Virus record (IMG/VR): IMGVR_UViG_3300020020_000561
Location: 1-22,638 of that record
Reading direction: 5' to 3' (one strand)
DNA length: 22,638 bases
Source of the DNA: a virus
The position numbers were made by a program, and so were the translations under genes. This document shows, in pieces, positions 148 through 22,638 of the stretch. Every line of letters starts with the position of its first letter. Within the stretch, counting starts at the first letter, position 1. The notes beneath the pieces are model-generated. The model was not told the origin of the DNA and ran no database searches. It saw only the letters and a list, made by a program, of their open reading frames with translations.

Positions 148-151
148 ATCT

Positions 152-822: not shown

Positions 823-831
823 GGAGCGCTC

Positions 832-1056: not shown

Positions 1057-1073
1057 TTCTCTCTCCTGTGAGG

Positions 1074-3137: not shown

Positions 3138-3198
3138 GCTAGACTCATAACGCAGTGACGGGCATGATTACAGCTATATCTAGAGCTTGGAACGCCCC
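3138..3198. promoter_or_regulatory. divergent intergenic region between portal and terminase cassette
   Basis: These 61 nt separate the leftward portal from the rightward terminase pair, so any promoters driving the two directions should lie here or read in from a distance. A TATATC box at 3175-3180 could be a rightward -10, but the nearest -35-like sequence (GTGACG at 3155-3160) is only 14 nt away. No convincing sigma70 promoter or phage-polymerase promoter is visible on either strand. Confidence 0.3.
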
Positions 3199-3684
3199 AT
3201 GACACAAGAACTTCTTGGCAGCCCGGCCAACAGCGACATCGCGCTGGTCAAGCTCGCCCGCGAAATTGCGATGGATATCCAGCCGCTCGAAGTCATCCTG
3301 AAGCGGCACTTGGTATCAGACGAGAAGTGGGCCGAACTACAATCAAGCAGCAAATTCAATGCTTTACTGTCTAGCGAGGTCGAGACATGGCAGACCGCGC
3401 TGAACACCCACGAGCGGGTCAAGATGAAGTCGGCGTCGATGCTGGAGGAGTGGCTCCCGACACTGAACACAAGGATGTCCAACACTAACGAAGCCCTCCC
3501 GGCGGTAATCGAGGCCGGGAAGATGCTGGCCCGGATCGCGGGGCTGGGCATGCCCGGCGAGATCCAAGGCAACGTCGGCGAGCGCTTCGTGATCAACATC
3601 TCAATGGGGCCGCAGGTAGAGCCCGTATCGTTCGCCAAGGATGTTACCTCGCAGGTAACTATCGAACATGAGCCCAGCAAATGA
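3199..3684 (+). CDS. putative terminase small subunit
   Basis: The 161-aa, largely helical and charged protein starts MTQELLGSPANSDIALVKLA. I take the ATG at 3199 because GGA at 3189-3191 is well spaced. A TTG at 3187 would extend it by four residues with less support. The protein reads helical through about residue 115, then turns to a beta-like, acidic tail (ERFVINISMGPQVEPVSFAK). It overlaps the large terminase by ATGA and shares its direction, opposite to both neighbours. Small terminases normally sit directly upstream of the large subunit and recognise the packaging site, so the role is inferred from position and size. No diagnostic helix-turn-helix was recognised. The gene carries one GTTACC/GGTAAC dyad near its 3' end. 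Confidence 0.6.
   Translation: MTQELLGSPANSDIALVKLAREIAMDIQPLEVILKRHLVSDEKWAELQSSSKFNALLSSEVETWQTALNTHERVKMKSASMLEEWLPTLNTRMSNTNEALPAVIEAGKMLARIAGLGMPGEIQGNVGERFVINISMGPQVEPVSFAKDVTSQVTIEHEPSK
3643..3659 (+). repeat. dyad repeat copy 1
   Basis: GTTACCTCGCAGGTAAC, perfect 7-bp arms with a 3-nt centre, in the 3' end of the small terminase gene, 21 nt before the large terminase ATG. It is the only copy found outside the right arm and is nearly identical to the copy at 21530. Confidence 0.65.
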
Positions 3685-5126: not shown

Positions 5127-5128
5127 CT

Positions 5129-8100: not shown

Positions 8101-8527
8101 AACCAAAGTGTTCCCAGTATCCCGTATTATACACACTGAACTGTACGTTGGTTCTGGTCCAAGATGTCACGCCACCATTCGATGAAATAAAGATCAGGTA
8201 ATGCCCGGCGTTATTCCCATAGGCAGAGTCGCCGTAGACCATAAACGCCTTCTGGTAATTGGTTGGCGCACCGATAATCTCGTAGACGCCGTTCGCAACA
8301 CCGCCATTATGGCCGCTGCCGAACGATATGGGGTTGACGACTTGATGCCACCAACTACCGTCCCAGAAATAAGCACCGGATACGTCCGTCTTGCAGTAGG
8401 CCCCGTTTGCAGCACCGGTCCCCGACACGTTAATCCCGACAACGTAGCCGCCATCGCCAAGCGGAAACGGTTGCCAGCCACTCGTAAGTGTTAACGCGAC
8501 TGGCGGAAAATTCAGCGTTGCTGGCAT
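5129..8527 (-). CDS. 1132-aa Asp-box beta-propeller tail protein, GH74/sialidase-like
   Basis: Probably a tail spike or fibre with glycan-binding or glycan-hydrolysing activity. Asp-box repeats, the loops that mark propeller blades, occur near residues 114-123, 190-199 (YRTLDGGTTW), 251-260 (YQSTNGGATF), 911-920 (IYTTNNGNTW), 962-971 (FRSINYGANW) and 1015-1024 (HYSTDGGDNW). The N-terminal KTDVSGAYFWDGSWW (46-60) resembles the start of GH74 xyloglucanases, where the Asp of TDVGGAYRW is catalytic; D48 would be its equivalent. A large insertion of about 270-590 interrupts the propeller with a jelly-roll-like domain, itself interrupted at about 365-440 by a Gly/Thr-rich module. The N-terminus (MPATLNFP) echoes that of the 587-aa tail protein. 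The start lies just after the KWGV-stop of the upstream gene. Enzymatic activity is inference; the propeller fold is well supported. Confidence 0.85.
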   Translation of the reverse strand: MPATLNFPPVALTLTSGWQPFPLGDGGYVVGINVSGTGAANGAYCKTDVSGAYFWDGSWWHQVVNPISFGSGHNGGVANGVYEIIGAPTNYQKAFMVYGDSAYGNNAGHYLIFISSNGGVTSWTRTNVQFSVYNTGYWEHFGSDITNAPKNKFANQKIVGDHTNPKVVYVGLPVGAVMTDAHVASPASVYRTLDGGTTWAVVPGLPVPSQYPGYAGMCIDKSSSMISLTVGSQTETVHSRIILPCAGVGIYQSTNGGATFSKITSDPTPSTIINYTTTQPNCVIIVQVMCAGEGHVSNVTNTGTASLTWTRRYGLTRNDTTRCVLYEYYAVAPSAGTYNISVNYHDGQLAYWTSNADTASCTAGTVNNRTFTVGGTVTGTFAIGQEISGSGLPVTSAGEVIEGGWWGAGNGIYLVSLTSGSGSTPGSTWTINASVLPVAATLIHGRTRQGNMVNVFAVQGCDVSAMPGSAFDAGGPRPGYQMYPGGGYAPITTVANNCLIFSFGHNNYGSPGITTVDSGYTAMGMTANPSFWSEISTVPMAAGTRSLGIDTNAVMTIADALKQGTGMTIARNGTAQYAISGPSLNTQPVDVWTAQMDNSGTYWCIDGVNARNYGNIWRLKSGVWDCISGSTVAICGIGLPFGSPGEGSIANAICVDPRPGFEGRVTFGGPNGVWRGFQTQTGNAAPASMTWWGSTGGALETTVGPSGVPWLGGFTTTGTGPAAVGDMVQDPVTGKYWQAHGHGIHVLESNLNWSSTDNTFTCICTNESQGIEEMLVQQVLAIPGAVHPLVGVEDEMVLISDLPNPPLAKARDDGDAHAWGMDYASNNPAFVWAYITGPLSGRMSCWSYDYGKEHTWQSPVTMPPVKPATGPDDLTYGGCMACASTGADGLSPTNATASVVIIAGGNVLTPIYTTNNGNTWLTCSGLPTQEYIGQMEWCTTLLAADRVNIGTYYCYAPGTGVFRSINYGANWTLMNGPLAGDNGVYCGYTLLSVPGYAGHLFFCANWNSAFPGTLHYSTDGGDNWAAIPGLTTVTGGYLGSAMWVALGKAAPGNAYPTVFTYATINSIPGYYRGVCNGASPAAGFAWTKFGDESSTPPSQYLGWQMSQIWGDPNIYGRLYVGWPSNGVFLFNL

Positions 8528-8530
8528 CTT

Positions 8531-10204
8531 CTACACGCCCCATTTGGCAAGAGTATACGCGGCGGCATTGCTGGCGTCGGTCGGCGCGTTGACTAGAGCA
8601 GCGGCATGATCTGCATACGGGATAATAAACGCCTCGCAGATGATCGCGTTCGAATAGGTTCCAGCAGTTTCACCCCCTATCGAAATGCCACCAATGATGC
8701 GTGCTATCCCAAAATCTTGCCCTGTCAGGTTGGATGCATTCAAGACAGACGAGGACGTTGATCCGTCATTTACGATGCGAGAGTGATAAACCGTATTCGT
8801 CGCAGTAGCGACACCCTGATTTATAACAACATTATTAGCAAATACGCTGTAGTTACCGCTGTTGTAACGGTTGTAGAAACTCAGAGTGCTGCTGTCCCCC
8901 GACGCGTGCGGGCGTCCAGAAAACAAGACGCCGTATGCCTCTCCAATCACCCCGGTTTGTTTCCAGACCATGACCAGCATGAAAGGCGCTGCCTTAAAGA
9001 AGTTAGCCGTTCTGAGGCTCCTGCCCGTACAATCAAGACCCGGCTTACCGTTGAGCGCGTTAGCCACATACATTGGCCCTGTCGCGAAAGGGGTCATGTT
9101 ATGTGTGGTCGGCAAGCCAAGGTCGCCTAACTGCGTCACTGTCTCAGTTGGTGCAGTCCCGGTCTTGGTAATCGAGGCCGCATTGCTGGCATCGATCCAC
9201 CAGATAGCAGGTGTCGATGCGGTAAGCGGTGTCCATCCCACAACGACATCGGCGGTTGTGAACGACCATAGTGTGGTTGAAGACAGCGCTGCGACACCAT
9301 TATTTAATGCATCTTTTACAATCCCCGCAGTCCAGACAATGTAATACTCCGTCGAGTTGGCCAGATTTGCTGTCAGATGCAGATGCAACGCATTGCCGCC
9401 GATAACTTGCAGCTGACCCGCACCGCTGCCGTTATCGGCTGGTGCATCCCAGCTGTCGACGAGCGAGTTGTCCGACGTTTTCTTCAAGGAGATTGTACCG
9501 GTGCCGAGCGTCACCGGCTCGCTGAACGTCACTATAAATGTAGCACCAATGACTAGATTGGTTGCGTTATCAGCAGGACTAAATGAGACAACCACTGGCG
9601 GATTTGACAACCAGTTGAATTTCACTCGCTGCTTCGACCCCACGGCGTCAAGCGATGGCTTCATTACAGTCGCCCAATGGGATTGACCTGCAGCTGTGCA
9701 GTGAACGCCATCAGGGTATTTACTAGTGTCATCAGCCGCCGCAAACGTGCCCCACGTTGGGTCAGCGGCCATATTAAAATAACCATCAATGGCATCGCCT
9801 ACCCACGATCCCATCTCGGGGTTCATCCATGCAATGGCAGCGTTGTAATTCGCGTAGCCTGTCCAAGCAGATCCTCTTGATGGCGGCCCAAACGCCAACA
9901 GACGCCAACCCCTGTCCCGATAAATACGGAACATGGCCTTGTAACGAACGAGCAGTGCCTCATAATCCGCAGTTGACCCCAACCCGAGATCATTCGCATA
10001 CGGCCATATGCTCATCATGTTGACACGACCGGGGAGAACCAGCGCGTTATTGGAATTAATCCGCCCCTCGTAAGTCGAAATGATAGCTCCGCTCGACGCT
10101 ACAACTGTCACGGTTGTGGGTTGATCAGGCACGTAGAGCGTCGGATAGGCCCCAACTGCGGCAGTGCTGCTTGAACCTTCCGCAATGTAATTGCGATTTG
10201 CCAT
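8531..10204 (-). CDS. tail protein: SGNH hydrolase + Ig-like + LamG-like lectin domain (copy 2)
   Basis: Residues 1-190 resemble an SGNH esterase. The nucleophile block is EGSSST (Ser12, with Ser replacing the Asp of GDS), the oxyanion Gly is near residue 39, the block III Asn is N71 in YANDLG, and the last block is DGVHCT (D165, H168). Residues 200-318 form a bacterial Ig-like domain of the SbsA/Big_5 type (SFSPADNATNLVIGATF, then WTAGIVKDALNN and LWSFTTAD). Residues 322-557 are a concanavalin/LamG-like sandwich ending KWGV. SGNH domains in phage tails are known to deacetylate surface polysaccharides, for example in coliphage G7C; that role here is inferred. The ATG at 10204 overlaps the previous stop by one base (TAATG). 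The protein is closely similar in architecture to the product of 11968-13674. Confidence 0.85.
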   Translation of the reverse strand: MANRNYIAEGSSSTAAVGAYPTLYVPDQPTTVTVVASSGAIISTYEGRINSNNALVLPGRVNMMSIWPYANDLGLGSTADYEALLVRYKAMFRIYRDRGWRLLAFGPPSRGSAWTGYANYNAAIAWMNPEMGSWVGDAIDGYFNMAADPTWGTFAAADDTSKYPDGVHCTAAGQSHWATVMKPSLDAVGSKQRVKFNWLSNPPVVVSFSPADNATNLVIGATFIVTFSEPVTLGTGTISLKKTSDNSLVDSWDAPADNGSGAGQLQVIGGNALHLHLTANLANSTEYYIVWTAGIVKDALNNGVAALSSTTLWSFTTADVVVGWTPLTASTPAIWWIDASNAASITKTGTAPTETVTQLGDLGLPTTHNMTPFATGPMYVANALNGKPGLDCTGRSLRTANFFKAAPFMLVMVWKQTGVIGEAYGVLFSGRPHASGDSSTLSFYNRYNSGNYSVFANNVVINQGVATATNTVYHSRIVNDGSTSSSVLNASNLTGQDFGIARIIGGISIGGETAGTYSNAIICEAFIIPYADHAAALVNAPTDASNAAAYTLAKWGV

Positions 10205-13674: not shown

Positions 13675-13678
13675 GACA

Positions 13679-16600
13679 TCAGGCTCCAAACGCTGCGGCG
13701 GCGAGAATGGTAACCTTGCTATCGCCTCTGGTTAGCGTCGGCGTCGACGATCCCACCGTCGTCGATTTCGCCAGTGAGATGTCCACGTCCGCGCTGGTAA
13801 GGTTTGCTATCACAGTGGAGTAGCCACCAGACCACGTAGCAGAACTAACACTCTCCATTCCCGCGAATGCCAGTGAAAAGCCACCGGAAGGAATAGTGAG
13901 CGAAGGTGCGACTATGGGGTCCGGAGGGTTCGCATAACCAGTCACTGACGTGGCCGGTGCTGCAGAACTAATTGCGTAAGCCATAACATAAGTAAATGCC
14001 ACAACCGAGAACACGCCCGGCCCAGTCGACGACTCAACCACAAGCCTGCCCGAGCTACCGATAGGAATGGCTACGCGATAGATACCAATCTGCCTGTTGT
14101 TCGATATAACTGACTGGACCAGCATCGTCATGACCGTTCCAGCCGGACTACCGGTTGCCATGTCCTGATCTGTAACCAGCCTGAGAACAGGACTTGTCGC
14201 GTTGAGAACAGAGGCATGAGCAATAATCAGATATCTCGACGCACTCTCGGGACCGTCGAATTTGATGTTGGGGTGCTGGTCGCTAAAATAGCCCATGCCA
14301 ACACTGGTCGTATGATGCGCTGGCGCAAAAGCCCCCATCGTTGTGGGCGTTGTCGGCACGGCAACAGCGGAGATCGTCACTGTCACTACAGTCGACCACT
14401 CGGACAAATGCCCGGCGGTTTCATGCTGCGCCTGCCAGTAGCTGGTACCGTTTGCTTCCTTGATGACCGGAAAGTCCAGCGCTCCAAAAGAGACAGTCCT
14501 CGCTGTAACGTCGTGCGTGTACGTGGTCGGCGACGTCATGCCGACAACTGATGAGCGCCGCAGCCGGATGATATCTCCCGGCTTCGGGTTCTCCAGATCC
14601 ATATCGAACTGCGGGCTGAAGACGGCACTGCTCGTCGCCCACACAAGAACCGGCGCGTCGGGCGCGAGCGGGTCGATACCGCCCGTCATCAGCTTGCTGA
14701 CGGTGTTAGAATAGACCGGCGGGGCAGCGCCACGCTGCAGCTTGACGCGAGCATAATAGGTGACGCCACCGACGAGCGTCGTGAACCCGGCATAAGTGAT
14801 CGTGCCCGCCGCAACCTCAGTGCTGTCGAGTACGTTAAGCTCGCTATCATAAAGACTGGAGAAGTCACTGTTGTCGTCGACTTCGCACGTCAGGGTATCG
14901 CCGATCATCGCGGTGTAGTCCGACAGCGTAAGCACTGGATCAAGTACGGTGTCGTCGGATGTCCATGTCAGCGTCGGCGCTGGCGTAGTCACTACAGTCG
15001 TAATCCTGAAGACGTCGCTCTTGTCGCCAATCGTCAGTGTTACGTCCACTGGCGTCCCCGCCGACGGGGACGATGTGCCGCGAACCTTGATACTGGCACC
15101 ATTGAATGTGGTCGTCGGGAACGAAGCCCACGGCAGGGTACCGACCTGATACTCGCCACCCGTGATCGTCATGAGGGTAGCAACGTTGATGCCCGAAACG
15201 GTGATGGCGTTACTCTCTACTACAGTCGAAAGAGGAACACCGCTGGCGTCCGTAAACGTAAACTGGTCCGGCGACGTATCCCCGGCCATTGTAGTAATCG
15301 TCCAAGTATCGCTAACCCCGCCAACCGTCAGTTGGAAAATGGAGTCGGACAAGGCAAATGTTGACGACATACCGTTTATCTTGACGGTGGTCCCGTTAAC
15401 CACGGTCGTCGTTGCGGAAGACCAACCACCAGTACCATTAAGCTGATACTGGGTATTCGTCGAGACTGTCAGGGTCGCGGGGGCATTGATCCCGGTAATC
15501 GTAATGGAGTTGCTCTCAAGAACCACCCCCATCGGCGCGTTTGTAACATCGATAAACGTAAACGGGTCAGGCGTCGTATCCACACCGAACGTAGTGATTT
15601 CGAAGGTGCTGCTGACCCCGCCAATATTCAGGGTCACCCCGGTCACGGTGGATTGTGTATTGGCAGACATGCCACGCACCTTGAAGGTGGTGCCGTTAAG
15701 CGCAGTGTTTGCGACGGTCAGCCAAGGCCCAGTACCGTTCTTCTGGTACTCGCCGCCTGCAACGGTCACACCCGTAGGCGCGGCAATGCCAGTCACCGTG
15801 ATCGTGTTACTTTCGATTACAGTATTAAGCGCCACACTCCCCACAGGGGCAAACGCAAAATCATCCGGCGTCGTATCTTCGGCTGCGTCGGTAACGTTGA
15901 CTGTAATGGTCTGCGAGTCGGTGCTGGTGCCGTCCGACGCCTGCACGATGACGATGTATTGATTGCTTGGCGGGACGGCAGCGCTGGCGGGGTTTTCGTA
16001 GTCAGGCGCGCTCACGAATGCCAACGCACCCGTGCTGGAGTTAATGGTGAACTTCGTAGCGTCCGCACCACCCGTTATCGAGTAGGTGATAACTGCGCCC
16101 GCGTCTGCGTCCGCAGCTGCCACGGCGGTGACTATAGTGCTGTTCTCGGGAACGGTTATGGTCGCCGTCGCCCCGCCGCCATTAGAGGAGATAACCGGCG
16201 CGAACTCGTTGACGTTGGTGACTATGGCCGTAAAGGTCTGGCTGACGGCATTGAGGGCAGCGTCTGTCGCAGTTATTTGAACGATGTACTGGTTGTCGCC
16301 GTTGGCATCGCCGAACGCCTCGTAGTTCTTGGCGGGCATTGTCAGGAACACCAGCGGCGGCGTCCCGGTTAACGTGAAGTGCAATGCGTCCGCACCGCCC
16401 GTGATGGCCCACGTTACATTCTCGCTGGCAGTCAGCGCATGCGTGAGGGGATCGTTTTCGGCGAGGGCTTTCGAACTTGCCGACGTGATGATCGGCGGCG
16501 TCGTGTCCACACTGTCAGCTATATCCGTTACAGTAACGGTAATAGTCTGCGTGTCGGTATTGGAGCCGTCACTGGCCTGCACGATGACGATGTACTGGTT

Positions 16601-17812
16601 GTTGGAGTCGGCATCGGTGGGGACTTCAAAATCAGGTGCCGCCTTGAACGTCAGCACGCCCGTGGTGGGGTTGATGTCAAATCTGGGACCGTCAGCACCA
16701 CCGGTTATCGAATAGGTAACAGCATCGTTGTCGGCATCGGTTGCCGCAACGGTCGTCACCGCAATCGTGTTCTCCACAACGGAGATATCAACGGTGGGGG
16801 TACCACCGTTCGATGTGATAACCGGCGCGAACTCGTTAACGGCAGCGACCGTAACTGTAATGGTTTGGTTGGTGGTGAGGCCCGCAGTATCCGTTGCAGT
16901 GATCTCAACGATGTACTGGTTGTTAAAGTCTGCATCGGCGGGCGACTCGAAATTCTTCGGGGAGAGCAACAATACCGAAGAAGCTACGCCACCAATCGTA
17001 AAGAGTCCCGCATCCGCACCGCCCGTTATCGTCCACGTCACAGTCTCGTCGGCGGTCAGCTGATGCGCAAGCTGCGAGTTTTCGAAAAGGGGAAGGTTCG
17101 ACGCTGAAGTGATAGTAGGCGGAATGAGATCGACGGGGTCGTATATATCCGTCACCGACACAGTGAACGTCTGCGTGTCCACAAACTTCCCGTCGCTGGC
17201 TACTACAGTAACGACGTAGACATTGGAATTTGTCGCGCTTAGGGGGCGCTCGTAATCGGGCGGCGCTGCGAACCGCAGCTCGCCCATGGAATTTATAGCG
17301 AACTTCGAAGCATCTGGTCCGGTTACTTCGTAGGTAACTACCGAGCCGATATCGGCATCCGTTGCTGCAACGACAGTGACCGCAGTGGTGTTCTCGACAA
17401 TGGACAGCGATACGTTAGCTGCACCGCCATGTGACACGAAGACAGGCGGGTACTCGTTGATGTCAACCACATCAATTGTAAACGTCACGTTGGGAAGTTG
17501 CGGTGAGACGCCAATCACCGACACGGTAAAGTTAAAGAAGGGCGTTGTTTCAAAGTCTGTATTGACCAACCCGGCAAGCACGGTCGCGTTGTTGGCACCG
17601 CCCAGCGCTATGCGCCCCGCAGCGTCGTCGATCAGCGAGTAGACCGGGATACCGATGGTGCCGGTGCAAGTGAGCGTTCCAATGACCGCTCCCGGAACGC
17701 TGTTCTCTGGCAGACCACTGGTGGTCAGCACCACGTCAAGGCCGCTGCCGTGGGCCGCGCGCAGCGCGTAACTGGTGATGCGCGTACTGGGGACCGAAAA
17801 TCCATAGGCCAT
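13679..17812 (-). CDS. 1377-aa cadherin-repeat tail/adhesin protein
   Basis: First gene of the leftward tail block. Residues 28-643 hold six cadherin-like repeats (about 28-120, 121-225, 231-326, 328-432, 439-536, 538-643). From the second on they alternate between a type with VENT and TDAD acidic calcium-type motifs (FAPVITSNGG start) and a type beginning PPIITSAS. Three tandem repeats of about 98 aa begin DTTPD or DTSPD at 647, 745 and 845 (VVESNTITVTGI motif). FnIII-like domains follow at 943-1040 and about 1050-1150, then a beta-rich C-terminal domain to 1377. There is no signal peptide. Multi-domain beta proteins like this usually form long tail fibres or host-binding stalks, with rigidity from bound calcium; that is inference. 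The ribosome site before the ATG at 17812 is weak. Repetition in the DNA explains the long antisense frames here. Confidence 0.85.
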   Translation of the reverse strand: MAYGFSVPSTRITSYALRAAHGSGLDVVLTTSGLPENSVPGAVIGTLTCTGTIGIPVYSLIDDAAGRIALGGANNATVLAGLVNTDFETTPFFNFTVSVIGVSPQLPNVTFTIDVVDINEYPPVFVSHGGAANVSLSIVENTTAVTVVAATDADIGSVVTYEVTGPDASKFAINSMGELRFAAPPDYERPLSATNSNVYVVTVVASDGKFVDTQTFTVSVTDIYDPVDLIPPTITSASNLPLFENSQLAHQLTADETVTWTITGGADAGLFTIGGVASSVLLLSPKNFESPADADFNNQYIVEITATDTAGLTTNQTITVTVAAVNEFAPVITSNGGTPTVDISVVENTIAVTTVAATDADNDAVTYSITGGADGPRFDINPTTGVLTFKAAPDFEVPTDADSNNQYIVIVQASDGSNTDTQTITVTVTDIADSVDTTPPIITSASSKALAENDPLTHALTASENVTWAITGGADALHFTLTGTPPLVFLTMPAKNYEAFGDANGDNQYIVQITATDAALNAVSQTFTAIVTNVNEFAPVISSNGGGATATITVPENSTIVTAVAAADADAGAVITYSITGGADATKFTINSSTGALAFVSAPDYENPASAAVPPSNQYIVIVQASDGTSTDSQTITVNVTDAAEDTTPDDFAFAPVGSVALNTVIESNTITVTGIAAPTGVTVAGGEYQKNGTGPWLTVANTALNGTTFKVRGMSANTQSTVTGVTLNIGGVSSTFEITTFGVDTTPDPFTFIDVTNAPMGVVLESNSITITGINAPATLTVSTNTQYQLNGTGGWSSATTTVVNGTTVKINGMSSTFALSDSIFQLTVGGVSDTWTITTMAGDTSPDQFTFTDASGVPLSTVVESNAITVSGINVATLMTITGGEYQVGTLPWASFPTTTFNGASIKVRGTSSPSAGTPVDVTLTIGDKSDVFRITTVVTTPAPTLTWTSDDTVLDPVLTLSDYTAMIGDTLTCEVDDNSDFSSLYDSELNVLDSTEVAAGTITYAGFTTLVGGVTYYARVKLQRGAAPPVYSNTVSKLMTGGIDPLAPDAPVLVWATSSAVFSPQFDMDLENPKPGDIIRLRRSSVVGMTSPTTYTHDVTARTVSFGALDFPVIKEANGTSYWQAQHETAGHLSEWSTVVTVTISAVAVPTTPTTMGAFAPAHHTTSVGMGYFSDQHPNIKFDGPESASRYLIIAHASVLNATSPVLRLVTDQDMATGSPAGTVMTMLVQSVISNNRQIGIYRVAIPIGSSGRLVVESSTGPGVFSVVAFTYVMAYAISSAAPATSVTGYANPPDPIVAPSLTIPSGGFSLAFAGMESVSSATWSGGYSTVIANLTSADVDISLAKSTTVGSSTPTLTRGDSKVTILAAAAFGA

Positions 17813-18100: not shown

Positions 18101-18117
18101 GTTACCCGGTGGGTAAC
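18101..18117. repeat. dyad repeat copy 2
   Basis: GTTACCCGGTGGGTAAC, perfect 7-bp arms, in the gene-free hairpin region, 11 nt after the GACGGCT hairpin. Confidence 0.65.
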
Positions 18118-18349
18118 TGGCGAGCGGTTAGGTAGCCGCGCCCAAAGGGAAATTTATCCCATGCTGTATCGCCCCATGGCTAAGTCGCCATGGCTGGGAG
18201 GAGGTAAGTGGTCCGCGCGCATGGCTTGTGCTCGTGTGGATACCAGCCCGACCCTCTGGATCGAGTAAAATCGATGCGCGGATACCCTTAGCGTGATGCC
18301 TCTGGTGTCCGGCCACGCTTCGCTCTAGTGCTACAAGCTTAGGATCGCG

Positions 18350-18366
18350 GTTACTTTTTGGGTAAC
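18350..18366. repeat. dyad repeat copy 3
   Basis: GTTACTTTTTGGGTAAC, extended by one outer G-C pair, in the gene-free region. It is bracketed by two AAGCTT hexamers (18335 and 18373). Confidence 0.6.
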
Positions 18367-18499
18367 CATGGGAAGCTTCAGGGTCATTGGGAAGGTGAAA
18401 GTCTGCTCGCCCAATGTAATGAAGCCTAAACTGTTCTGACACAACAGCCCGCTCTGCGAGTGCCGCAACTAACTAAGCCCTGAAACCGTGAGCAAGGAT

Positions 18500-18671
18500 G
18501 CCTTGGATCTCCAAGGCTTGACGTTGATTGGTTCGCGCGGCCTTCGTGATGGCTACTGTCATCACTCGCCGCGCGGATCATTCAACCGTGTCGCCATGTG
18601 GTCAATCCACCCAAGAGTACTTGTTGGCTGGAAGCCGCGCTGTCACTGCGACGGCGACACCGTTGAATGAT
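18500..18671 (+). ncRNA. candidate structured RNA of three stacked hairpins upstream of 18691 gene
   Basis: Three consecutive hairpins fill 172 nt. (a) GCCTTGG-ATCT-CCAAGGC, 18500-18517. (b) 18534-18575: an outer stem CGCGCGGC/GCCGCGCG, a small internal loop, and an inner stem GTGATGGC/GTCATCAC with a four-base loop. (c) 18577-18595 with 18653-18671: 18 of 19 positions pair, enclosing 57 nt that contain GTGG-TCAAT-CCAC. Hairpins b and c are one base apart and could stack. The one wobble in b is G-U if the plus strand is transcribed (A-C otherwise), which slightly favours rightward RNA. It ends 10 nt before the ribosome site of the next gene, so it could be a 5' leader or a free RNA. The 60-aa open frame through it is unlikely to be real. 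Confidence 0.45.
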
Positions 18672-18687
18672 AACCTCATGAGGTAAC
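18671..18687 (+). repeat. dyad repeat copy 4, start-associated
   Basis: TAACCTCATGAGGTAAC with a central perfect palindrome ACCTCATGAGGT. The GAGG doubles as ribosome site for the ATG at 18691. The left arm is imperfect. Confidence 0.55.
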
Positions 18688-18690
18688 CCA

Positions 18691-18897
18691 ATGGCTTCGT
18701 CTGGCAACACTTGGTTCAAGAAGCTCCGCAACAAGCAACGGCTTCACTCGCTCAAAGTCAAAGGCGTGAAGCAGCGCCACTCGATTGATAACGGCAATGA
18801 CTACGTGGCCGCGCCGCGACCGGCTGTGATGTTCGGACGGCAGCCGCGCCGGTTCGGCAGTGTGCCGAGCGCACTCCCGCCGCAATCCGCTCGCTGA
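18691..18897 (+). CDS. 68-aa basic hypothetical protein
   Basis: First credible gene of the rightward block. The ATG at 18691 follows GAGGTAACCCA, whose GAGG is the ribosome site and whose GGTAAC is the right arm of a dyad repeat. The product begins MASSGNTWFKKLRNKQRLHS and is rich in Lys/Arg throughout (about a quarter of residues), with a Pro/Arg-rich end. It has no membrane segment. A nucleic-acid-binding role would fit the charge, but no family is recognised. Its 3' end contains a copy of the GCGCACTCCCGC repeat. It sits directly downstream of the structured 18500-18671 element, which may control its expression. Confidence 0.6.
   Translation: MASSGNTWFKKLRNKQRLHSLKVKGVKQRHSIDNGNDYVAAPRPAVMFGRQPRRFGSVPSALPPQSAR
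18869..18880 (+). repeat. GCGCACTCCC element, copy 1
   Basis: GCGCACTCCCGC followed by CGCAATCCG, at the 3' end of the 68-aa gene. Confidence 0.4.
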
Positions 18898-18925
18898 CGG
18901 TACTACGGCACCCCAAACGCGGGTA

Positions 18926-18956
18926 TTGACCTAAAAGTGAGTACTATCAGTACTAT
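18926..18956 (+). promoter_or_regulatory. weak sigma70-like promoter candidate with AGTACTAT direct repeat
   Basis: TTGACC at 18926-18931 could be a -35 and TACTAT at 18951-18956 a -10, with a 19-nt spacer, longer than ideal. TATAAC at 18954-18959 is an alternative -10 but further away. The octamer AGTACTAT is repeated at 18940-18947 and 18949-18956, nine bases apart, overlapping the spacer and -10. It would read into the AT-rich region and the small genes beyond. Confidence 0.27.
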
Positions 18957-19148
18957 AACTAATGTAATATATATAATATAGATTTTTACATACAAGAGTG
19001 TACAATGGGAGGTTACTTATCGGTTACTGACCCCCACGGCCACTAAAAGGATTAGCTCTCTCTCGAAAAAACTTATATGATATATACTACATTTGTTAAG
19101 TCTTTGACGCCAGTGGTCTTTTGGTCAATCAAATATAACAAGCCGGTG

Positions 19149-19187
19149 TCGTTCTATGCTCTCGCTCTGGCGCGGAGCATAGAATGA
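19149..19187. repeat. strong inverted repeat (13-bp stem)
   Basis: TTCTATGCTC (19152-19161) pairs perfectly with GAGCATAGAA (19175-19184). C-G and T-A pairs and one G-U extend the stem outward to 19149/19187, and an inner CGC/GCG can close a TCTG loop. It is followed by seven A residues on the plus strand, not T, so it is not a standard terminator in either direction. The wobble is allowed only in plus-strand RNA. Possible roles are an RNA processing or stability structure ahead of the small-gene operon, or a DNA hairpin. Confidence 0.6.
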
Positions 19188-19218
19188 AAAAAATTGAAAG
19201 TCAACCCCACCCCTAGTT

Positions 19219-19238
19219 GTCTGCCGACGTCGGTAGAC
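19219..19238. promoter_or_regulatory. 20-bp palindrome, operator-like
   Basis: GTCTGCCGACGTCGGTAGAC is symmetric about CCGACGTCGG, with one mismatched pair (G19223/T19234). It sits 20 bp before the ATG at 19259, where a dimeric regulator could control the small-gene run. No regulator gene is visible in the window, so the role is inferred only from symmetry and position. Confidence 0.4.
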
Positions 19239-19258
19239 CATTACCAATGGAGCCCGCA

Positions 19259-19366
19259 ATGGATTTGCTCGCTATGCTTGGTGCCGCCTTCATGACCGGA
19301 GGCGGGCTTGCCGTCATCGTGTTCATTCTCGTCAACGTCATCGGAGATATAACCCATGAGTTATAA
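19259..19366 (+). CDS. 35-aa single-span membrane peptide
   Basis: ATG at 19259 with GGAG six bases upstream (19249-19252). The sequence starts MDLLAMLGAAFMTGGGLAVI and continues VFILVNVIGDITHEL, so about residues 3-28 form one transmembrane helix with a short polar, acidic C-terminus. It overlaps the next gene by 11 nt in another frame. Tiny membrane proteins are common in phage early or lysis regions, but nothing here identifies a holin, and one span with an uncharged N-terminus is not specific. Function unknown. Confidence 0.55.
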   Translation: MDLLAMLGAAFMTGGGLAVIVFILVNVIGDITHEL

Positions 19367-19487
19367 GAAACACGGCGGCCTGCACTTCGTGCGGATCGGG
19401 CGCTTTGGCTTTTCGTTCTTCTGGTCGGCCAAGGCGCGCACTCCCCGCAGCAATCTCGACCCGCGTTACTCTTACCTCGCGAGGTAA
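19356..19487 (+). CDS. 43-aa basic aromatic-rich hypothetical protein
   Basis: ATG at 19356, inside the end of the previous gene, with GGAG at 19343-19346. The product is MSYKKHGGLHFVRIGRFGFS followed by FFWSAKARTPRSNLDPRYSY and LAR. It is strongly basic and rich in Phe and Gly, with a possible amphipathic middle. I have a faint memory of similar short KHGGLHF-RIGRFG proteins in other phages, but no known function. The stop codon lies inside a perfect 16-bp palindrome (19472-19487), and a GCGCACTCCCCGC element is in the coding sequence. Confidence 0.58.
   Translation: MSYKKHGGLHFVRIGRFGFSFFWSAKARTPRSNLDPRYSYLAR
19436..19448 (+). repeat. GCGCACTCCC element, copy 2
   Basis: GCGCACTCCCCGC followed by AGCAATCTCG, near the 3' end of the 43-aa gene. 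Confidence 0.42.
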
Positions 19488-19488
19488 C
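19471..19488 (+). repeat. dyad repeat copy 5, start-associated
   Basis: CTTACCTCGCGAGGTAAC. The inner 16 bp, 19472-19487, are a perfect palindrome containing the stop of the 43-aa gene. GAGG is the ribosome site for the ATG at 19493. Confidence 0.65.
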
Positions 19489-19492
19489 TCAC

Positions 19493-19801
19493 ATGTCTGC
19501 ACTTGCTTACAATGGTACCTTTGCCGATCAAGCCTATGCCGCTGGTATTGAAGACGGCAAACAGCAGGCAACCCGCATCTCACTAGGCGAAAGCAACTAC
19601 GGCGCAACGCAAAGCGCCATCATCGCCATCGAGTTCACATCCTTCCAAGAGCTGCGCCACGAGATCCGCGCACGGCGGGATCGAAGCTACGGCGACCGTC
19701 CGGGCATGGCCTACCTCTGGACCTGCGAACTGATCCACATTCACCACAACGATTACAACAAAGTCGCGCTGCTGAAATGCGCCACGCATTGGGATGTCTG
19801 A
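19493..19801 (+). CDS. 102-aa hypothetical protein
   Basis: ATG at 19493 preceded by GAGGTAACTCAC. The GAGG serves as ribosome site and GGTAAC is the dyad's right arm. The product (MSALAYNGTFADQAYAAGIE start) looks soluble, mixed helix and sheet. It has an Ala-rich N-terminal helix, a charged middle (SFQELRHEIRARRDRSYGDR), and a His/Cys-containing end (WTCELIHIHHNDYNKVALL, then CATHWDV). The clustered His and Cys could bind metal, but no known signature is present. It is followed after one base by a tiny membrane-protein gene. Function unknown. Confidence 0.62.
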   Translation: MSALAYNGTFADQAYAAGIEDGKQQATRISLGESNYGATQSAIIAIEFTSFQELRHEIRARRDRSYGDRPGMAYLWTCELIHIHHNDYNKVALLKCATHWDV

Positions 19802-19802
19802 A

Positions 19803-19901
19803 ATGTTTCCGGAAATCTTCGTAGGCTTCTTGCTCACGCTTCTCGCTATCGCATTCGGGCTCAACGTCTGGGCTTGCTTCACTGCCGACCAAGAAGACTA
19901 G
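19803..19901 (+). CDS. 32-aa membrane peptide
   Basis: ATG at 19803, one base after the previous stop (TGAAATG), so translation is probably coupled. The product, MFPEIFVGFLLTLLAIAFGL then NVWACFTADQED, is a single hydrophobic helix (about residues 4-26) with an acidic tail. Second tiny membrane protein in this block, after 19259-19366. There is no separate ribosome site of note. Function unknown; real expression is likely from the tight spacing but unproven. Confidence 0.48.
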   Translation: MFPEIFVGFLLTLLAIAFGLNVWACFTADQED

Positions 19902-19941
19902 TCTTTGCTGGCGGGACTTTAATTAAGCAGCATCACCCACT

Positions 19942-19959
19942 CTTACCCACAGGAGTAAC
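19942..19959 (+). repeat. dyad repeat copy 6, start-associated
   Basis: CTTACCCACAGGAGTAAC. AGGAG is the ribosome site for the ATG at 19964. The arms TTAC and GTAA pair. Confidence 0.55.
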
Positions 19960-19963
19960 TGTA

Positions 19964-20137
19964 ATGAACGTTCAACTCATCACTGAAGATATGTTCAGGC
20001 TCGAAGGCTACATCGACGATACGTTCCAGCTGATCTTCGAAGCGCTGGAGATTGCCGCTGCAAGTGACGACCACTATGCGCCAGCGTTTGGCGCGCTTGC
20101 CGAAAAGCTGGCGATTGCCGCTGGCGACTGGATGTAA
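19964..20137 (+). CDS. 57-aa acidic hypothetical protein
   Basis: The start is the ATG at 19964, preceded by CAGGAGTAACTGTA. The AGGAG is the ribosome site and GAGTAAC the right arm of a dyad. Longer in-frame starts upstream give an unlikely Arg/His-rich extension without a ribosome site. The product (MNVQLITEDMFRLEGYIDDT start) is acidic and helical, with an Ala/Glu-rich middle (FEALEIAAASDDHYAPAF), and ends GDWM. No family recognised. The stop is directly followed by a GCGCACTCCCCCCGC repeat copy. Confidence 0.6.
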   Translation: MNVQLITEDMFRLEGYIDDTFQLIFEALEIAAASDDHYAPAFGALAEKLAIAAGDWM

Positions 20138-20138
20138 C

Positions 20139-20153
20139 GCGCACTCCCCCCGC
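20139..20153 (+). repeat. GCGCACTCCC element, copy 3
   Basis: GCGCACTCCCCCCGC followed by AACCCACCC, starting 2 nt after the stop of the 57-aa gene. Confidence 0.42.
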
Positions 20154-20187
20154 AACCCACCCAACCGATCCCCACAAGGAGATTACA

Positions 20188-20922
20188 ATGACTGCTCTCG
20201 CCCACAACTTGACCAACGACACCCGCGAAGTCGAGTTCGATGCGTTTACCCGCGATGCAGCCCGCACGGATGCGGCTGGCAACGACGCCCTGCCCGGCTG
20301 GGCGATAGCATTCGTCCGTGCCGTTTCTGATGGTGTGTTCACCGTCGCCAAGGACGCCAACGGCGAAGACGCCGCGATGCGCAAGTTCAAGATCTACGCC
20401 ACTGCCAAGGGCAAGAAAGCGTTCCACGACCGCTCCGAGACTTCGCAGAAAGCGCAAGTGAGCAAGCTGCGGCAATTGATGAATGCTGCGGCTAATCCCA
20501 AGTTCGATTTCGTGGATGTGCTGAACCGCGCTGTTACTATTCGGCAGGGAGCAATCGACGACGGCCTCGAAGTCAAGTCACCCTATCCTGCTTACGTTGA
20601 CATCGCCCGCGAACAGCTAAAGCAGGACGACGAGTTGAGCGACGAGCAGATCCTCTCCGTGGTCTGCAAGAACGAGGTTACCCGAGAGGTAACGGTCGAA
20701 GGACAACTGAAGAAGGCGTACAAGATCCTTGAAGATCTTATCGCTGGCGAGAAGCATCCGGGCGTGCAGGATCAGACGCCTGAAGTGTTGATGGCTGCCG
20801 AGCAGCTGCACACACGCATCGCAACGCTCGTTACCATTCGCGAGGGCTTCGAGAAGGTAACGAAGGCCATCGAGCTGGGCATGGTGCAGAACGTGGATGG
20901 TAGCTGGTCGCTGCCCTCGTAA
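20188..20922 (+). CDS. 244-aa helical hypothetical phage protein
   Basis: The largest right-arm gene. ATG at 20188 with a strong AAGGAG ribosome site. The protein is charged and mostly helical. The N-terminal third (residues 1-60) is acidic (NDTREVEFDAFTRDAA). Residues 68-100 are basic (KFKIYATAKGKKAFHDRSET, then SQKAQVSKLRQLMNAA), which could contact nucleic acid. A second half has long helices (IAREQLKQDDELSDEQIL, QLKKAYKILEDLIAGEKH). There is no membrane segment, no known catalytic motif and no clear helix-turn-helix. The length and expression-type ribosome site suggest a main early product. A full GTTACC/GGTAAC dyad is embedded at 20677-20693, with related arms at 20830-20861 and at the stop. 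Function not assigned. Confidence 0.72.
   Translation: MTALAHNLTNDTREVEFDAFTRDAARTDAAGNDALPGWAIAFVRAVSDGVFTVAKDANGEDAAMRKFKIYATAKGKKAFHDRSETSQKAQVSKLRQLMNAAANPKFDFVDVLNRAVTIRQGAIDDGLEVKSPYPAYVDIAREQLKQDDELSDEQILSVVCKNEVTREVTVEGQLKKAYKILEDLIAGEKHPGVQDQTPEVLMAAEQLHTRIATLVTIREGFEKVTKAIELGMVQNVDGSWSLPS
20677..20693 (+). repeat. dyad repeat copy 7, inside coding sequence
   Basis: GTTACCCGAGAGGTAAC, perfect 6-bp arms, within the 244-aa gene, where it encodes VTREVT. Confidence 0.6.
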
Positions 20923-20936
20923 CCTCTTGAAGTAAC
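20919..20936 (+). repeat. dyad repeat copy 8, degenerate
   Basis: GTAACCTCTTGAAGTAAC, starting within the stop codon of the 244-aa gene. The right arm is intact; the left arm is reversed or degenerate. Confidence 0.4.
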
Positions 20937-20940
20937 AAGC

Positions 20941-20969
20941 GCGGGGAGCCCATTCGCGGCGCTCCCCGC
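20941..20969 (+). terminator. GC-rich hairpin after the 244-aa gene, possible terminator
   Basis: GCGGGGAGC (20941-20949) pairs perfectly with GCTCCCCGC (20961-20969) around an 11-nt loop, 18 nt after the stop of the 244-aa gene. The following bases (AGTTAGCTCCTTG) contain no T-run, so as an intrinsic terminator it would be weak. It could instead protect an mRNA end or act as a processing site. Its GGGGAG arm is the complement of the GCGCACTCCCC element's core. Confidence 0.4.
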
Positions 20970-21010
20970 AGTTAGCTCCTTGTCGTGCAAGACTTCAGAG
21001 CAAGGCCATC

Positions 21011-21374
21011 ATGACACATACAACGATGCTGACCACCTGCGCAGCCATCACAATCGCTGGCGCACTCCTCGCCGTCGCCATACCTACGCCATCGAACCCC
21101 ATAGTCATTCAACCATTCGAACAATCGTGGCGCGAGAGCATGGTGCCGCTGGGCTTCAAGCAAGCGCAACTAAAGACAACACCACCCGAGCCAACACCTG
21201 TGCGGGTTATCCCCTGCGGTGCCGGTTACCCCGGAAGTAACAGAGGAGGAGACTCCTGTGGTTCGAGTGGCCAAGCGCTATGGGTCACGCACAGAACGCC
21301 ACACGGCTCGCGACATCTGCCGAGGCAAGGGCAAGCGATACATCAACAGATACAAATGGAGATGCCGAAGATGA
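21011..21374 (+). CDS. probable frameshifted gene: signal/TM N-terminus plus basic WRCRR C-terminus
   Basis: ATG at 21011 with AAGG upstream. Residues 6-25 are hydrophobic (TTCAAITIAGALLAVAIPTP), either a signal peptide or membrane anchor, followed by IQPFEQSWRESMVPLGF. At about residue 68 the natural-looking sequence continues in the +1 frame. PVRVIP passes at CCC-T (21212-21215) into AVPVTPEVTEEETPVV, then RVAKRYGSRTERHTARDICR and RYINRYKWRCRR, stopping at 21372-21374; the total is 120 aa. The unshifted frame stays open and would run Gly/Ser/His-rich nonsense into the next gene, giving a 212-aa fusion. Alternatives are a sequencing error in the C4 run, or two genes with the second starting at GTG 21258 (AGGAGGAG upstream). 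The basic Cys-containing C-terminus suggests a secreted or envelope-bound small protein. Function unknown. Confidence 0.5.
21225..21241 (+). repeat. dyad repeat copy 9, next to frameshift site
   Basis: GTTACCCCGGAAGTAAC, 5-bp arms, beginning 10 nt after the CCC codon of the proposed +1 shift and followed by AGAGGAGGAG. Confidence 0.55.
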
Positions 21375-21649
21375 GTGACCATCACCCCATAGCCAAACCC
21401 GACGGAGAGTTCAGCGTCGTGCAGTTCTTCCCGGACGGCACACATGAGTGGGTCCGCGAGCGTTGCAGTGTCGATGAGGCACTCAAGGCTGCGGAGCATT
21501 ACACGCAGAACGTATCGGCACATGCCGGACTTACCTCGCGGGTAACCATCCTCGATGGCGGCGACTCAATTGTATTCGAGTGGCGCTTTGGTGAAGGCGT
21601 TGTCTTCCCTGAAGTCTACGAACAGCAGCGAAGGGACTACGGCAAATGA
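21371..21649 (+). CDS. 92-aa hypothetical protein
   Basis: The start is the ATG at 21371, which overlaps the TGA of the shifted upstream frame (ATGA). This supports both that stop and this start, although the frame is open further upstream. The product (MSDHHPIAKPDGEFSVVQFF start) has a mixed beta/alpha look: a strand pair, a helix (CSVDEALKAAEHYTQNV), then strands (SRVTILDGGDSIVFEWRF). That order is compatible with a small compact fold. No family is recognised. It overlaps the next gene by ATGA, and a CTTACC/GGTAAC dyad lies within it at 21530-21546. Confidence 0.63.
   Translation: MSDHHPIAKPDGEFSVVQFFPDGTHEWVRERCSVDEALKAAEHYTQNVSAHAGLTSRVTILDGGDSIVFEWRFGEGVVFPEVYEQQRRDYGK
21530..21546 (+). 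repeat. dyad repeat copy 10, inside coding sequence
   Basis: CTTACCTCGCGGGTAAC in the 92-aa gene, differing at two positions from copy 1. Confidence 0.6.
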
Positions 21650-21813
21650 AGTACGTGATCCTGATGGGCAACCCCGCTGATGGCTTCGTGATCATCGGAC
21701 CATTTGACGACGCAGCCTTCGCTGCCGAGTACATCAACACCGACCCTGCTGGAAAAGATATGTGGGTCTGCGAAATGCATGAGCCCGATTTGTTACCCGA
21801 GGAAGTAACATGA
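21646..21813 (+). CDS. 55-aa hypothetical phage protein
   Basis: ATG at 21646 overlaps the previous stop by ATGA, and its own TGA overlaps the next ATG in the same way, so three genes are translationally chained. The product (MKYVILMGNPADGFVIIGPF start, then DDAAFAAEYIN) has two strands, a helix and an end that reads DMWVCEMHEPD. I recall similar short proteins beginning MKYVILMGNPADGF in other phages but no function. The dyad at 21792-21809 encodes its last residues and supplies the ribosome site of the following gene. Confidence 0.62.
   Translation: MKYVILMGNPADGFVIIGPFDDAAFAAEYINTDPAGKDMWVCEMHEPDLLPEEVT
21792..21809 (+). repeat. dyad repeat copy 11, start-associated
   Basis: GTTACCCGAGGAAGTAAC, directly abutting the ATG at 21810. 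GAGGA is the ribosome site, so both arms bracket it. Confidence 0.6.
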
Positions 21814-22040
21814 GAGAAGATGAAAGCGTTGAAGACTACACCGGGCGGCTGGACGTGCTTGCAGATAAAGTCAGCAAGCATTTTGTGGGTGAGGACATTC
21901 AGGAGATCGTCCTCGTCCTCACCCGCTTGACCATCGAATGTCTGGACCAAGTGGAAGACCCCCGCGACAGACGCGGCATGATCCACGTCATCAAAGTCTA
22001 CTACGACGCCGCCAACATCCATCTGGGCGAAGTTAACTAG
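21810..22040 (+). CDS. 76-aa acidic helical hypothetical protein
   Basis: ATG at 21810 directly abuts GAGGAAGTAAC, so the GAGGA is the ribosome site and GTAAC the dyad arm, and the start overlaps the previous stop. The protein (MREDESVEDYTGRLDVLADK start) appears to be almost all helix, acidic at the N-terminus, with LADKVSKHFVGEDIQEIVLV giving a heptad-like hydrophobic pattern that could dimerise. It has no membrane segment or catalytic motif. Function unknown. The end (HLGEVN, stop at 22038-22040) overlaps the left half of the next dyad. Confidence 0.62.
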   Translation: MREDESVEDYTGRLDVLADKVSKHFVGEDIQEIVLVLTRLTIECLDQVEDPRDRRGMIHVIKVYYDAANIHLGEVN

Positions 22041-22049
22041 GGAGGTAAC
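22032..22049 (+). repeat. dyad repeat copy 12, start-associated
   Basis: GTTAACTAGGGAGGTAAC, containing the stop of the 76-aa gene and the GGAGG ribosome site of the GTG at 22051. Confidence 0.5.
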
Positions 22050-22050
22050 T

Positions 22051-22311
22051 GTGGCCAAGATCTACGACGAGTTCTGTGCATGGCCATACCATACGCCCTA
22101 CGGAATGGTCGCTGCACCCAAGGTAAAGAAGCCACGCAAGCCGCGCACTCCGCGCGCCAAACCCGACTGGCTCAAGACTCAACCCAAGAAAGGAAAGCCT
22201 CGTGCCACGAAAGCCCGACCCCACCGAAGAAGAGATGAACGCAGACACCGCAAAGATCATGAAGGACATGGAGAGTTACTTCGTGAAGTACTACGGCCCG
22301 CGCTGCCCTGA
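22051..22311 (+). CDS. 86-aa Lys/Pro-rich basic protein, GTG start
   Basis: GTG at 22051 after GGGAGGTAACT, a strong ribosome site (GGAGG) merged with the dyad arm. The N-terminus is ordered and aromatic (MAKIYDEFCAWPYHTPYGMV). After it comes a histone-tail-like basic region (KVKKPRKPRTPRAKPDWLKT, then QPKKGKPRATK). From about residue 51 the frame overlaps the next gene by 110 nt, and the residues turn into an Arg/His-rich string that looks like an off-frame reading of it. The true end may therefore be earlier in related phages, and this copy may have lost a stop or shifted frame. Nucleic-acid binding is plausible from charge only. Confidence 0.5.
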   Translation: MAKIYDEFCAWPYHTPYGMVAAPKVKKPRKPRTPRAKPDWLKTQPKKGKPRATKARPHRRRDERRHRKDHEGHGELLREVLRPALP

Positions 22312-22381
22312 GTACGAGAAGGGCTGTGTCGTGTGCGAAGTGTGGGAGCTGTACGACGAGCTACATCTGTTGATCAAATAA
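22202..22381 (+). CDS. 59-aa Cys-containing hypothetical protein
   Basis: GTG at 22202 has AGGA seven bases upstream; an in-frame ATG at 22235 after GAAGAAGAG is the alternative start. The product (MPRKPDPTEEEMNADTAKIM start) continues DMESYFVKYYGPRCPEYEKG and CVVCEVWELYDELHLL. Three Cys in C-x6-C-x2-C spacing could bind a metal, although a fourth ligand is not evident. Composition and codon flow are more natural than those of the overlapping frame, which supports this as the real gene in the overlap. Last rightward gene before the oppositely oriented dioxygenase. Confidence 0.58.
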   Translation: MPRKPDPTEEEMNADTAKIMKDMESYFVKYYGPRCPEYEKGCVVCEVWELYDELHLLIK

Positions 22382-22395
22382 CCCGGAGAAGTAAC
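22378..22395 (+). repeat. dyad repeat copy 13, between convergent genes
   Basis: ATAACCCGGAGAAGTAAC, overlapping the stop of the 59-aa gene and touching the stop of the dioxygenase. It has a ribosome-site-like GGAGAA but no gene start follows. Confidence 0.45.
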
Positions 22396-22638
22396 TACTG
22401 GAACCAAGTGATCATGCTGTACCGCGTGCCTGCCGTTACCGGCTTGATGGCATGCGGATACATGAAATTGGATGGGAACATGAGCGCACTCCCCGCCTCG
22501 ACCCGCATGCAAAGCTCGTCCTTGAAGAAGGAGAACTCACCGCCCTCGTAATCATTATTGAGCGCAAGACTAAAAGACAGTAAGCGTGGCGATCCCATAG
22601 TGTGATCAGTATGTTCTTTATAGAACTGACCCTGTTCG
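22395..22638 (-). CDS. 2-oxoglutarate/Fe(II)-dependent dioxygenase, C-terminal part
   Basis: Leftward gene cut by the right edge; 80 residues remain. They contain the double-stranded beta-helix signature of prolyl-4-hydroxylase-type enzymes. The iron ligands are H-x-D in YKEHTDH (residues 9 and 11 of the visible part) and the distal His in NFMYPHAIKP (62). The 2-oxoglutarate-binding Arg is in GTRYSMITW (72). The strand LALNNDYEGGEFSFF and the turn VEAGSALMFPS are family hallmarks. Such enzymes hydroxylate protein side chains or other substrates using O2 and 2-oxoglutarate, and they occur in many environmental phages, where their targets are mostly unknown. The stop TAG at 22395-22397 lies against the last dyad. 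An internal ATG at residue 14 is not the start, because the H-x-D motif lies before it. Confidence 0.9.
   Translation of the reverse strand, partial: EQGQFYKEHTDHTMGSPRLLSFSLALNNDYEGGEFSFFKDELCMRVEAGSALMFPSNFMYPHAIKPVTAGTRYSMITWFQ
22484..22496 (+). repeat. GCGCACTCCC element, copy 4
   Basis: GCGCACTCCCCGC followed by CTCGACCCGC, within the dioxygenase gene (antisense to it). It may be a coding coincidence (EAGSALM). Confidence 0.3.

Follow-up and report, generated by a model that had tools for sequence, protein, structure and literature searches.

Examination of a 22,638-base linear virus record (IMG/VR record IMGVR_UViG_3300020020_000561; this whole stretch is hereafter the window) reveals a short dyad, GTWACC-N5/6-GGTWAC (W being A or T), that recurs along the genomes of a phage lineage with relatives in Rhizobium phage RHph_TM3_14A and in Bradyrhizobium prophages. 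These sites are real, symmetric, genome-wide, specific to the lineage and under selection at the level of DNA. We propose, as a roughly even call, that they are operators of one phage-encoded dimeric protein, most likely engaged in a stoperator-like silencing or timing of phage transcription.

The dyad and its abundance in the window

The half-site is GTWACC, with both A and T present at W in nearly all relatives, and two discrete spacers of five or six bases (N5 and N6) give an overall length of 17 or 18 bp; a softer extension of the consensus reads GTWACCY-N3/4-RGGTWAC. Both lengths are common and forms of 16 and 19 bp are rare, the N4 and N7 spacers lying close to background. At one mismatch or fewer the window contains 14 sites, against 0.0 per shuffled window, and a looser search for GTTACCN5GGTAAC with up to three mismatches recovers 24, where 100 shuffles give a mean of 7.4 and a maximum of 17.

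A first-pass annotation of the window had listed twelve such dyads in its right part and a thirteenth at 3643, under the consensus KTTACC-N5-GGTAAC. The feature is present at all of these places (the copy assigned to 18671 begins at 18670), and every one of the twelve right arms ends in GTAAC. The TTAC left arm fails at four of the twelve (ATAACC at 18670, GTAACC at 20919, GTTAAC at 22032 and ATAACC at 22378) because the arm takes A or T at one position, and exact matches to that consensus are confined to three copies (3643, 18101 and 20677). Likewise, the near-constant length of 17-18 bp stands as a measurement but resolves into the two spacers. A first impression of 'direct' and 'everted' half-site repeats reflects the same A/T alternative at one position and no other arrangement.

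The left side of the window encodes the portal, terminase and long tail proteins, and is followed by a divergent region of 880 bases and then by small genes read rightward. Density within the window is greatest at 18.1-22.4 kb (Table 1). The tail genes, which had been thought to lack a comparable set, do carry copies at one mismatch or fewer (8852, 16704 and 17322), though far more sparsely, with three in ~12.7 kb against the twelve listed in 4.3 kb. A terminator-like call on the 20677 dyad arises only from the site being a dyad; promoter and terminator scans gave results at chance level, and no RNA families or tRNAs were found in the window.

Table 1. Dyad sites and associated features in the window, with the integrase of a related prophage
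Feature	Sequence	Position	Strand	Description
Dyad	GTTACCTCGCAGGTAAC	3643..3659	.	N5, exact; within small-terminase gene
Dyad		8852..8868	.	N5, 1 mismatch; within tail gene; weak, possibly chance
Dyad	GTTATCGAATAGGTAAC	16704..16720	.	N5, 1 mismatch; within 1377-aa tail gene
Dyad	GTTACTTCGTAGGTAAC	17322..17338	.	N5, 1 mismatch; within 1377-aa tail gene
Dyad	GTTACCCGGTGGGTAAC	18101..18117	.	N5, exact; noncoding, in the divergent region that separates leftward tail genes from rightward early genes
Dyad	GTTACTTTTTGGGTAAC	18350..18366	.	N5, 1 mismatch; same divergent region as the 18101 site
Dyad	ATAACCTCATGAGGTAAC	18670..18687	.	N6; its GAGG overlaps the Shine-Dalgarno position of the open reading frame (ORF) starting at 18691
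Dyad	CTTACCTCGCGAGGTAAC	19471..19488	.	N6; closely 5' of the ORF starting at 19493
Dyad	CTTACCCACAGGAGTAAC	19942..19959	.	N6, 2 mismatches; closely 5' of the ATG at 19965
Dyad	GTTACCCGAGAGGTAAC	20677..20693	.	N5, exact; within the conserved 244-aa gene
Dyad	GTAACCTCTTGAAGTAAC	20919..20936	.	N6; TAA stop of the 244-aa gene in left arm
Dyad	GTTACCCCGGAAGTAAC	21225..21241	.	N5, 1 mismatch
Dyad	CTTACCTCGCGGGTAAC	21530..21546	.	N5, 1 mismatch; within an ORF
Dyad	GTTACCCGAGGAAGTAAC	21792..21809	.	N6, 1 mismatch; immediately 5' of the ATG at 21810
Dyad	GTTAACTAGGGAGGTAAC	22032..22049	.	N6, 1 mismatch; overlaps the stop at 22038-22040, ends 1 nt before the GTG at 22051
Dyad	ATAACCCGGAGAAGTAAC	22378..22395	.	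N6, 2 mismatches; TAA stop of the ORF ending at 22381 in left arm
Conserved 244-aa protein, all-alpha in its model, rh28 family		20188..20922	+	In nearly all relatives; one dyad within, one at the stop
Serine integrase		L162:3486-5162 and L156		At prophage edge, Bradyrhizobium sp. 139

Distribution across the lineage and its hosts

Relatives of the window's terminase include ones encoded on contigs of ~60 kb and by four cultured Rhizobium phages (57% identity); the relatives compared here are RHph_TM3_14A and further ones fetched as loci. Summed over 15 genomes, TTAC-Nn-GTAA occurs 116 times at n=7 and 218 times at n=8, with only 0-10 occurrences at each other spacing from 0 to 25; two of these genomes (G007 and G008) are close relatives, so that the sums are partly non-independent, and the pattern is seen separately in nearly every genome. 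Individual relatives have 14-74 sites at one mismatch or fewer, as against ~0-0.6 per shuffle at each spacing. Reversed-pattern controls in the relatives are near zero, and in most genomes the most overrepresented 5-mer dyad is a version of the site. Genome-wide counts are far above the shuffled expectation; by the first-pass annotation, counts no higher than composition predicts would have refuted the family. The sites span the whole genome in relatives and are denser in the early region; the earlier impression of a family limited to the right arm thus fails at the level of the genome.

Pseudomonas phage Rollin, which has a similar genome size and 35% TerL identity, is without the dyad and has no peak at n=7 or n=8. 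A motif-first scan of viral contigs yielded at least 119 readable loci; among the matches listed, 11 contigs have at least five sites, and ten of these carry genes of the RHph_TM3_14A-related lineage, the eleventh having 43% GC and a higher background. The motif is usable as a genomic signature with which to pick this lineage out of metagenomes.

A dyad with fixed short arms resembles the site of a host regulator or a modification site, and the hosts are rhizobia; the sites might accordingly belong to a host protein or to a methyltransferase that the phage recruits. However, two Bradyrhizobium chromosomes contain the dyad in chance numbers (in one, ~10 over 8.6 Mb; genome-wide, the reversed pattern used as control occurs 50 times). 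In two Bradyrhizobium genomes most N6 sites are on phage contigs, and in one of 8.7 Mb the 60-kb phage contig accounts for 20 of the 30. Moreover, details of the consensus differ from phage to phage, as does the preferred spacer, which is nearly always N5 in G013 and G023 and nearly always N6 in G006 and G012, most others being mixed; a bipartite methyltransferase is in addition ill-suited to two spacer lengths and a degenerate W. We consider a host protein or methyltransferase improbable.

Symmetry and selection at the DNA level

An RNA hairpin formed by the arms should favour the T-A and A-T combinations at W. The observed numbers of consensus/consensus, mixed and variant/variant combinations are 301, 169 and 27, where independence predicts 307, 157 and 33. 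At the remaining positions Watson-Crick pairing is within 3% of independence and not above it, the test being limited at the outer, second and sixth positions by the one-mismatch filter, and the soft positions 7 and 8 show no clear excess of pairing. Compensatory changes between the arms, as expected of a hairpin, were not found. This independent variation of the half-sites argues against a selected RNA hairpin. Furthermore, the 36 intragenic sites of RHph_TM3_14A carry 12 mismatches in their 5' arms and 11 in their 3' arms, and the element thus has no evident direction relative to transcription. Taken together, the dyad symmetry, the independent half-sites and the equal mismatch load of the arms inside genes point to a DNA site for a dimeric protein, in agreement with what the first-pass annotation had suggested; going by these sequence patterns, the binder is very likely a dimer with two equal DNA-binding units.

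Conservation is concentrated in the arms, which are 98.7% identical between G007 and G008 (spacer 90.3%, flank 94.6%), 93.8% between G004 and G021 (spacer 82.4%, flank 84.1%) and 83.3% between G001 and G002 (spacer 75.5%, flank 70.7%). Close relatives keep 30 of 31, 15 of 16 and 5 of 9 aligned sites, so that the conservation in relatives on which the first-pass annotation had staked the family is indeed observed; in more distant pairs sites are seldom kept in place, which matches the expectation for binding sites that turn over. These comparisons also bear on whether the repeats are shared intergenic linkers retained for homologous recombination, in the manner of mosaic boundary sequences. Many sites do fall at gene junctions, and the 17-bp attachment (att) core of one prophage, described below, holds a half-site; yet the conservation is confined to the arms while spacers and flanks diverge, 12 separated bases with a variable centre would be a poor recombination substrate, and most sites in RHph_TM3_14A are intragenic. 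Such linkers seem to us extremely improbable.

Placement relative to genes

In RHph_TM3_14A, 19 of the 55 sites touch noncoding DNA (6.2 expected), ten end 1-8 nt 5' of an annotated start (0.64 expected), and 36 are wholly intragenic. Of 476 sites in the lineage as a whole, 99 have their end 1-8 nt 5' of the ATG of an ORF of at least 60 codons; shifted controls give 25-48. At junctions, the stop codon of the upstream gene can come from the left arm (GTAACC) and the Shine-Dalgarno sequence from the right arm (GAGGTAAC). Within the window, the TAA of the upstream gene is part of the left arm in the 20919 and 22378 sites, and the sites at 18670, 19471, 21792 and 22032 lie 5' of start codons.

Given this excess before starts, and the right-arm GAGG at the Shine-Dalgarno position of several window sites, the repeats could be envisaged as RNA-level elements, namely hairpins or sequences controlling translation initiation like the start-associated sequences (SAS) of Cluster K phages. 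Against this stand the lack of compensatory pairing between the arms, the location of the majority of sites away from starts and the equal mismatch load per arm of the wholly intragenic ones; the GAGG itself is half of a symmetric consensus that holds inside genes too. A role at the RNA level therefore appears very improbable.

Lifestyle of the lineage

Ten of 25 records encode a tyrosine integrase. The phage of Bradyrhizobium sp. 139 occupies the end of contig C111 together with the start of contig C166, and is flanked by chromosomal genes, for an S49 peptidase on one side and for a polyprenyl synthetase and a ketoacyl synthase on the opposite side, with a serine integrase at the inner edge (Table 1). 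A shared 17-bp core at C111:25004 and C166:25142 (GGCCATGCCGTTACCTC), which contains a dyad half-site and on one side falls within the S49 peptidase gene, bounds ~61 kb. From this arrangement we infer an integrated prophage, with C111 and C166 left unjoined in the assembly. A Resolvase search of the viral records was empty. The RHph_TM3_14A gene annotated as a 'putative integrase' (L085 42239-45322) matches primase/helicase families and DUF927 instead.

Candidate binding proteins

Between the genes for the DNA polymerase and a RecB-like nuclease, 12 of the 25 phage genomes that were searched encode a small winged-helix protein. So do both Bradyrhizobium records, one of these being identical to the contig of a phage record. 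A profile of the protein hits PhoB-family domains (E=0.0025), with Trans_reg_C recovered for three members; its structural model is a winged helix with a mean predicted local distance difference test score of 69, and the wHTH structures that it resembles include SaeR (2.2 A), with E < 0.001 for no match. On domain grounds only, this PhoB-type protein is the best candidate for the binder. A second, different PhoB-type winged-helix protein is encoded just 3' of the primase gene in G005 (3166-3675), G009 (2644-3144) and G013 (1696-2106). No HTH_3 (XRE/CI-type) protein was detected in 25 records, and no ParB_N domain in 21. The conserved 244-aa protein of the window is not favoured as the binder, since its predicted all-alpha structure had no structural match and no recognised DNA-binding fold.

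Proposed function

In the reading that we favour, a two-fold symmetric phage dimer would recognize GTWACCY-N3/4-RGGTWAC, reading each half-site independently and accepting two centre-to-centre distances, of 11 or 12 bp. It would occupy the divergent early control region as well as gene junctions and gene interiors, at about one site per kb, and once bound might block both initiation and stray elongation. Phage transcription would thereby be silenced or timed, in the prophage state, at the early-late switch, or both. Silencing in the manner of stoperators leads because the lineage includes an integrated prophage and further members with integrases. That the binder is a phage protein and that it acts as a repressor are put forward here as probable rather than observed, and the PhoB-type winged-helix protein is put forward as a candidate.

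Several observations weigh against this proposal. The complete genome of RHph_TM3_14A, with its 55 sites, has no recognised tyrosine or serine integrase, and the sites are thus not tied to lysogeny in a simple way. Recognition of two spacings is uncommon for a rigid dimer, and a purely transcriptional role does not need about a fifth of the sites to be at translation starts. As for the winged-helix candidate, no copy is detectable in the near-complete G009 (59 sites) and G012 (17 sites), several other genomes without it being fragments; its gene sits among replication genes and not in an immunity-type position; and a co-divergence test fails to single it out, the motif co-diverging with nearly every core gene, that is, with general relatedness.

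Some of the same observations would suit sites that organise the genome, at which a phage protein bound every ~1 kb folds, protects or marks the DNA (nucleoid-like, or in replication or packaging) with no control of genes. Sites occur in early genes, in structural genes and also within the very long tail genes, and are retained in a phage with no recognised integrase, and their spacing is more even than random in RHph_TM3_14A (P < 0.0005), G008, G007 and G006; in other genomes, the window included, it is clustered. Such a role accords poorly with the density of the early block of RHph_TM3_14A, about twice that of the structural region 1-17521 (1.21 against 0.51 per kb; 0.79 in the second late block), with the enrichment at noncoding junctions, with the sites in the divergent control region or with the ParB_N search. 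We judge genome organisation unlikely, though worth keeping in view.

Beyond silencing or timing by a dimer, we tentatively suggest, as a broader picture that is possible but on balance doubtful, that a whole clade of temperate phages of alphaproteobacteria relies on a genome-wide network for silencing or organisation. In it a dimer unlike the CI and L5 repressors, possibly a stand-alone PhoB-like winged helix, would read two spacings at sites fitted into gene junctions, where an arm doubles as the upstream stop codon or the downstream ribosome-binding site, and the network would be kept even where there is no recognised integrase.

Additional features of the window and its relatives

Three adjacent leftward tail genes of the window (8531-13689, minus strand) share repeated blocks, a PADNAT/PLDNAT Ig-like stretch followed by WW(I/V)DASNA..., in a duplication-like pattern, and upstream of them is the 1377-aa protein, which has cadherin-like repeats. 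An AT-rich segment between early leader ORFs (18920-19110; TATATATAATATAG) is a possible promoter or origin region. The window ends within a gene (22395-22637, minus strand) for the C-terminal part of a 2OG-Fe(II) oxygenase-like protein (PHROG 61). A gene pair encoding an ATPase (PHROG 1297) and a VWA/metallopeptidase (DUF2201), at L085 26620-27726 and 28808-30091, is kept throughout the lineage.

Comparison with known systems

A literature search by sequence string yielded no report of this motif in phages. In plasmid RK2, several palindromic operators spread over a single replicon serve in silencing and are bound by KorB, a ParB-family protein. The dyad resembles these in being palindromic and scattered across a replicon, and differs in its unrelated sequence and in the lack of a ParB_N hit in 21 records. 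Silencing by KorB has been described (PMC11790492). The likeness to lambdoid operators raised by the first-pass annotation is one of length alone: no HTH_3 protein of the CI/Cro kind was found in the 25 records, and the sites are genome-wide instead of being confined to early control regions.

Among mycobacteriophages, the SAS and ESAS elements of Cluster K are asymmetric, tied to starts, and overlap Shine-Dalgarno positions before start codons (PMC3203893). The dyad is likewise a repeated motif overlapping such positions; unlike SAS, it is symmetric, occurs inside genes too, and lies near an ATG in only about a fifth of cases. The stoperators of the Cluster A phages L5 and Bxb1 are 13-bp asymmetric sites, oriented with transcription and bound by a known helix-turn-helix repressor; these temperate phages have 24-34 dispersed copies, many of them intergenic, with a proposed role in blocking transcription (PMC3029335). 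The L5 precedent invoked by the first-pass annotation is plausible in so far as the rhizobial lineage also has many dispersed copies and temperate members, including an integrated prophage and integrase carriers; it falters on symmetry, the sites of this lineage having no evident orientation by the intragenic mismatch counts. By definition the dyad is not a stoperator, though by analogy it may work like one, in which case it would represent symmetric genome-wide silencing outside the actinobacteriophages. The GTTAC that Bxb1 (GTTACGWDTCAAG) has in common with the site is probably a coincidence.

In architecture the closest precedent is the 17-bp palindrome TGTTCGG-NNN-CCGAACA of the Cluster O mycobacteriophages (the Corndog group), present in ~34 copies per genome (PMC4351075). 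When described in 2015 these repeats had neither a known function nor a known binder, and the authors proposed a dimeric regulator (PMC4351075). Both are symmetric dyads of about 17 bp with a variable centre, present in tens of copies at junctions and inside genes and denser in one arm of the genome. The sequences are unrelated, and the fixed N3 and near-invariant arms of Cluster O contrast with the two spacers and degenerate W of the rhizobial lineage; Cluster O encodes ParB-like proteins and no integrase, whereas the rhizobial lineage has no ParB_N match and includes an integrated prophage and integrase carriers. The same architecture is thus found in a lineage unrelated to Cluster O that has cultured members (the Rhizobium RHph_TM phages) and natural Bradyrhizobium lysogens, in which the function of such repeats could be tested.

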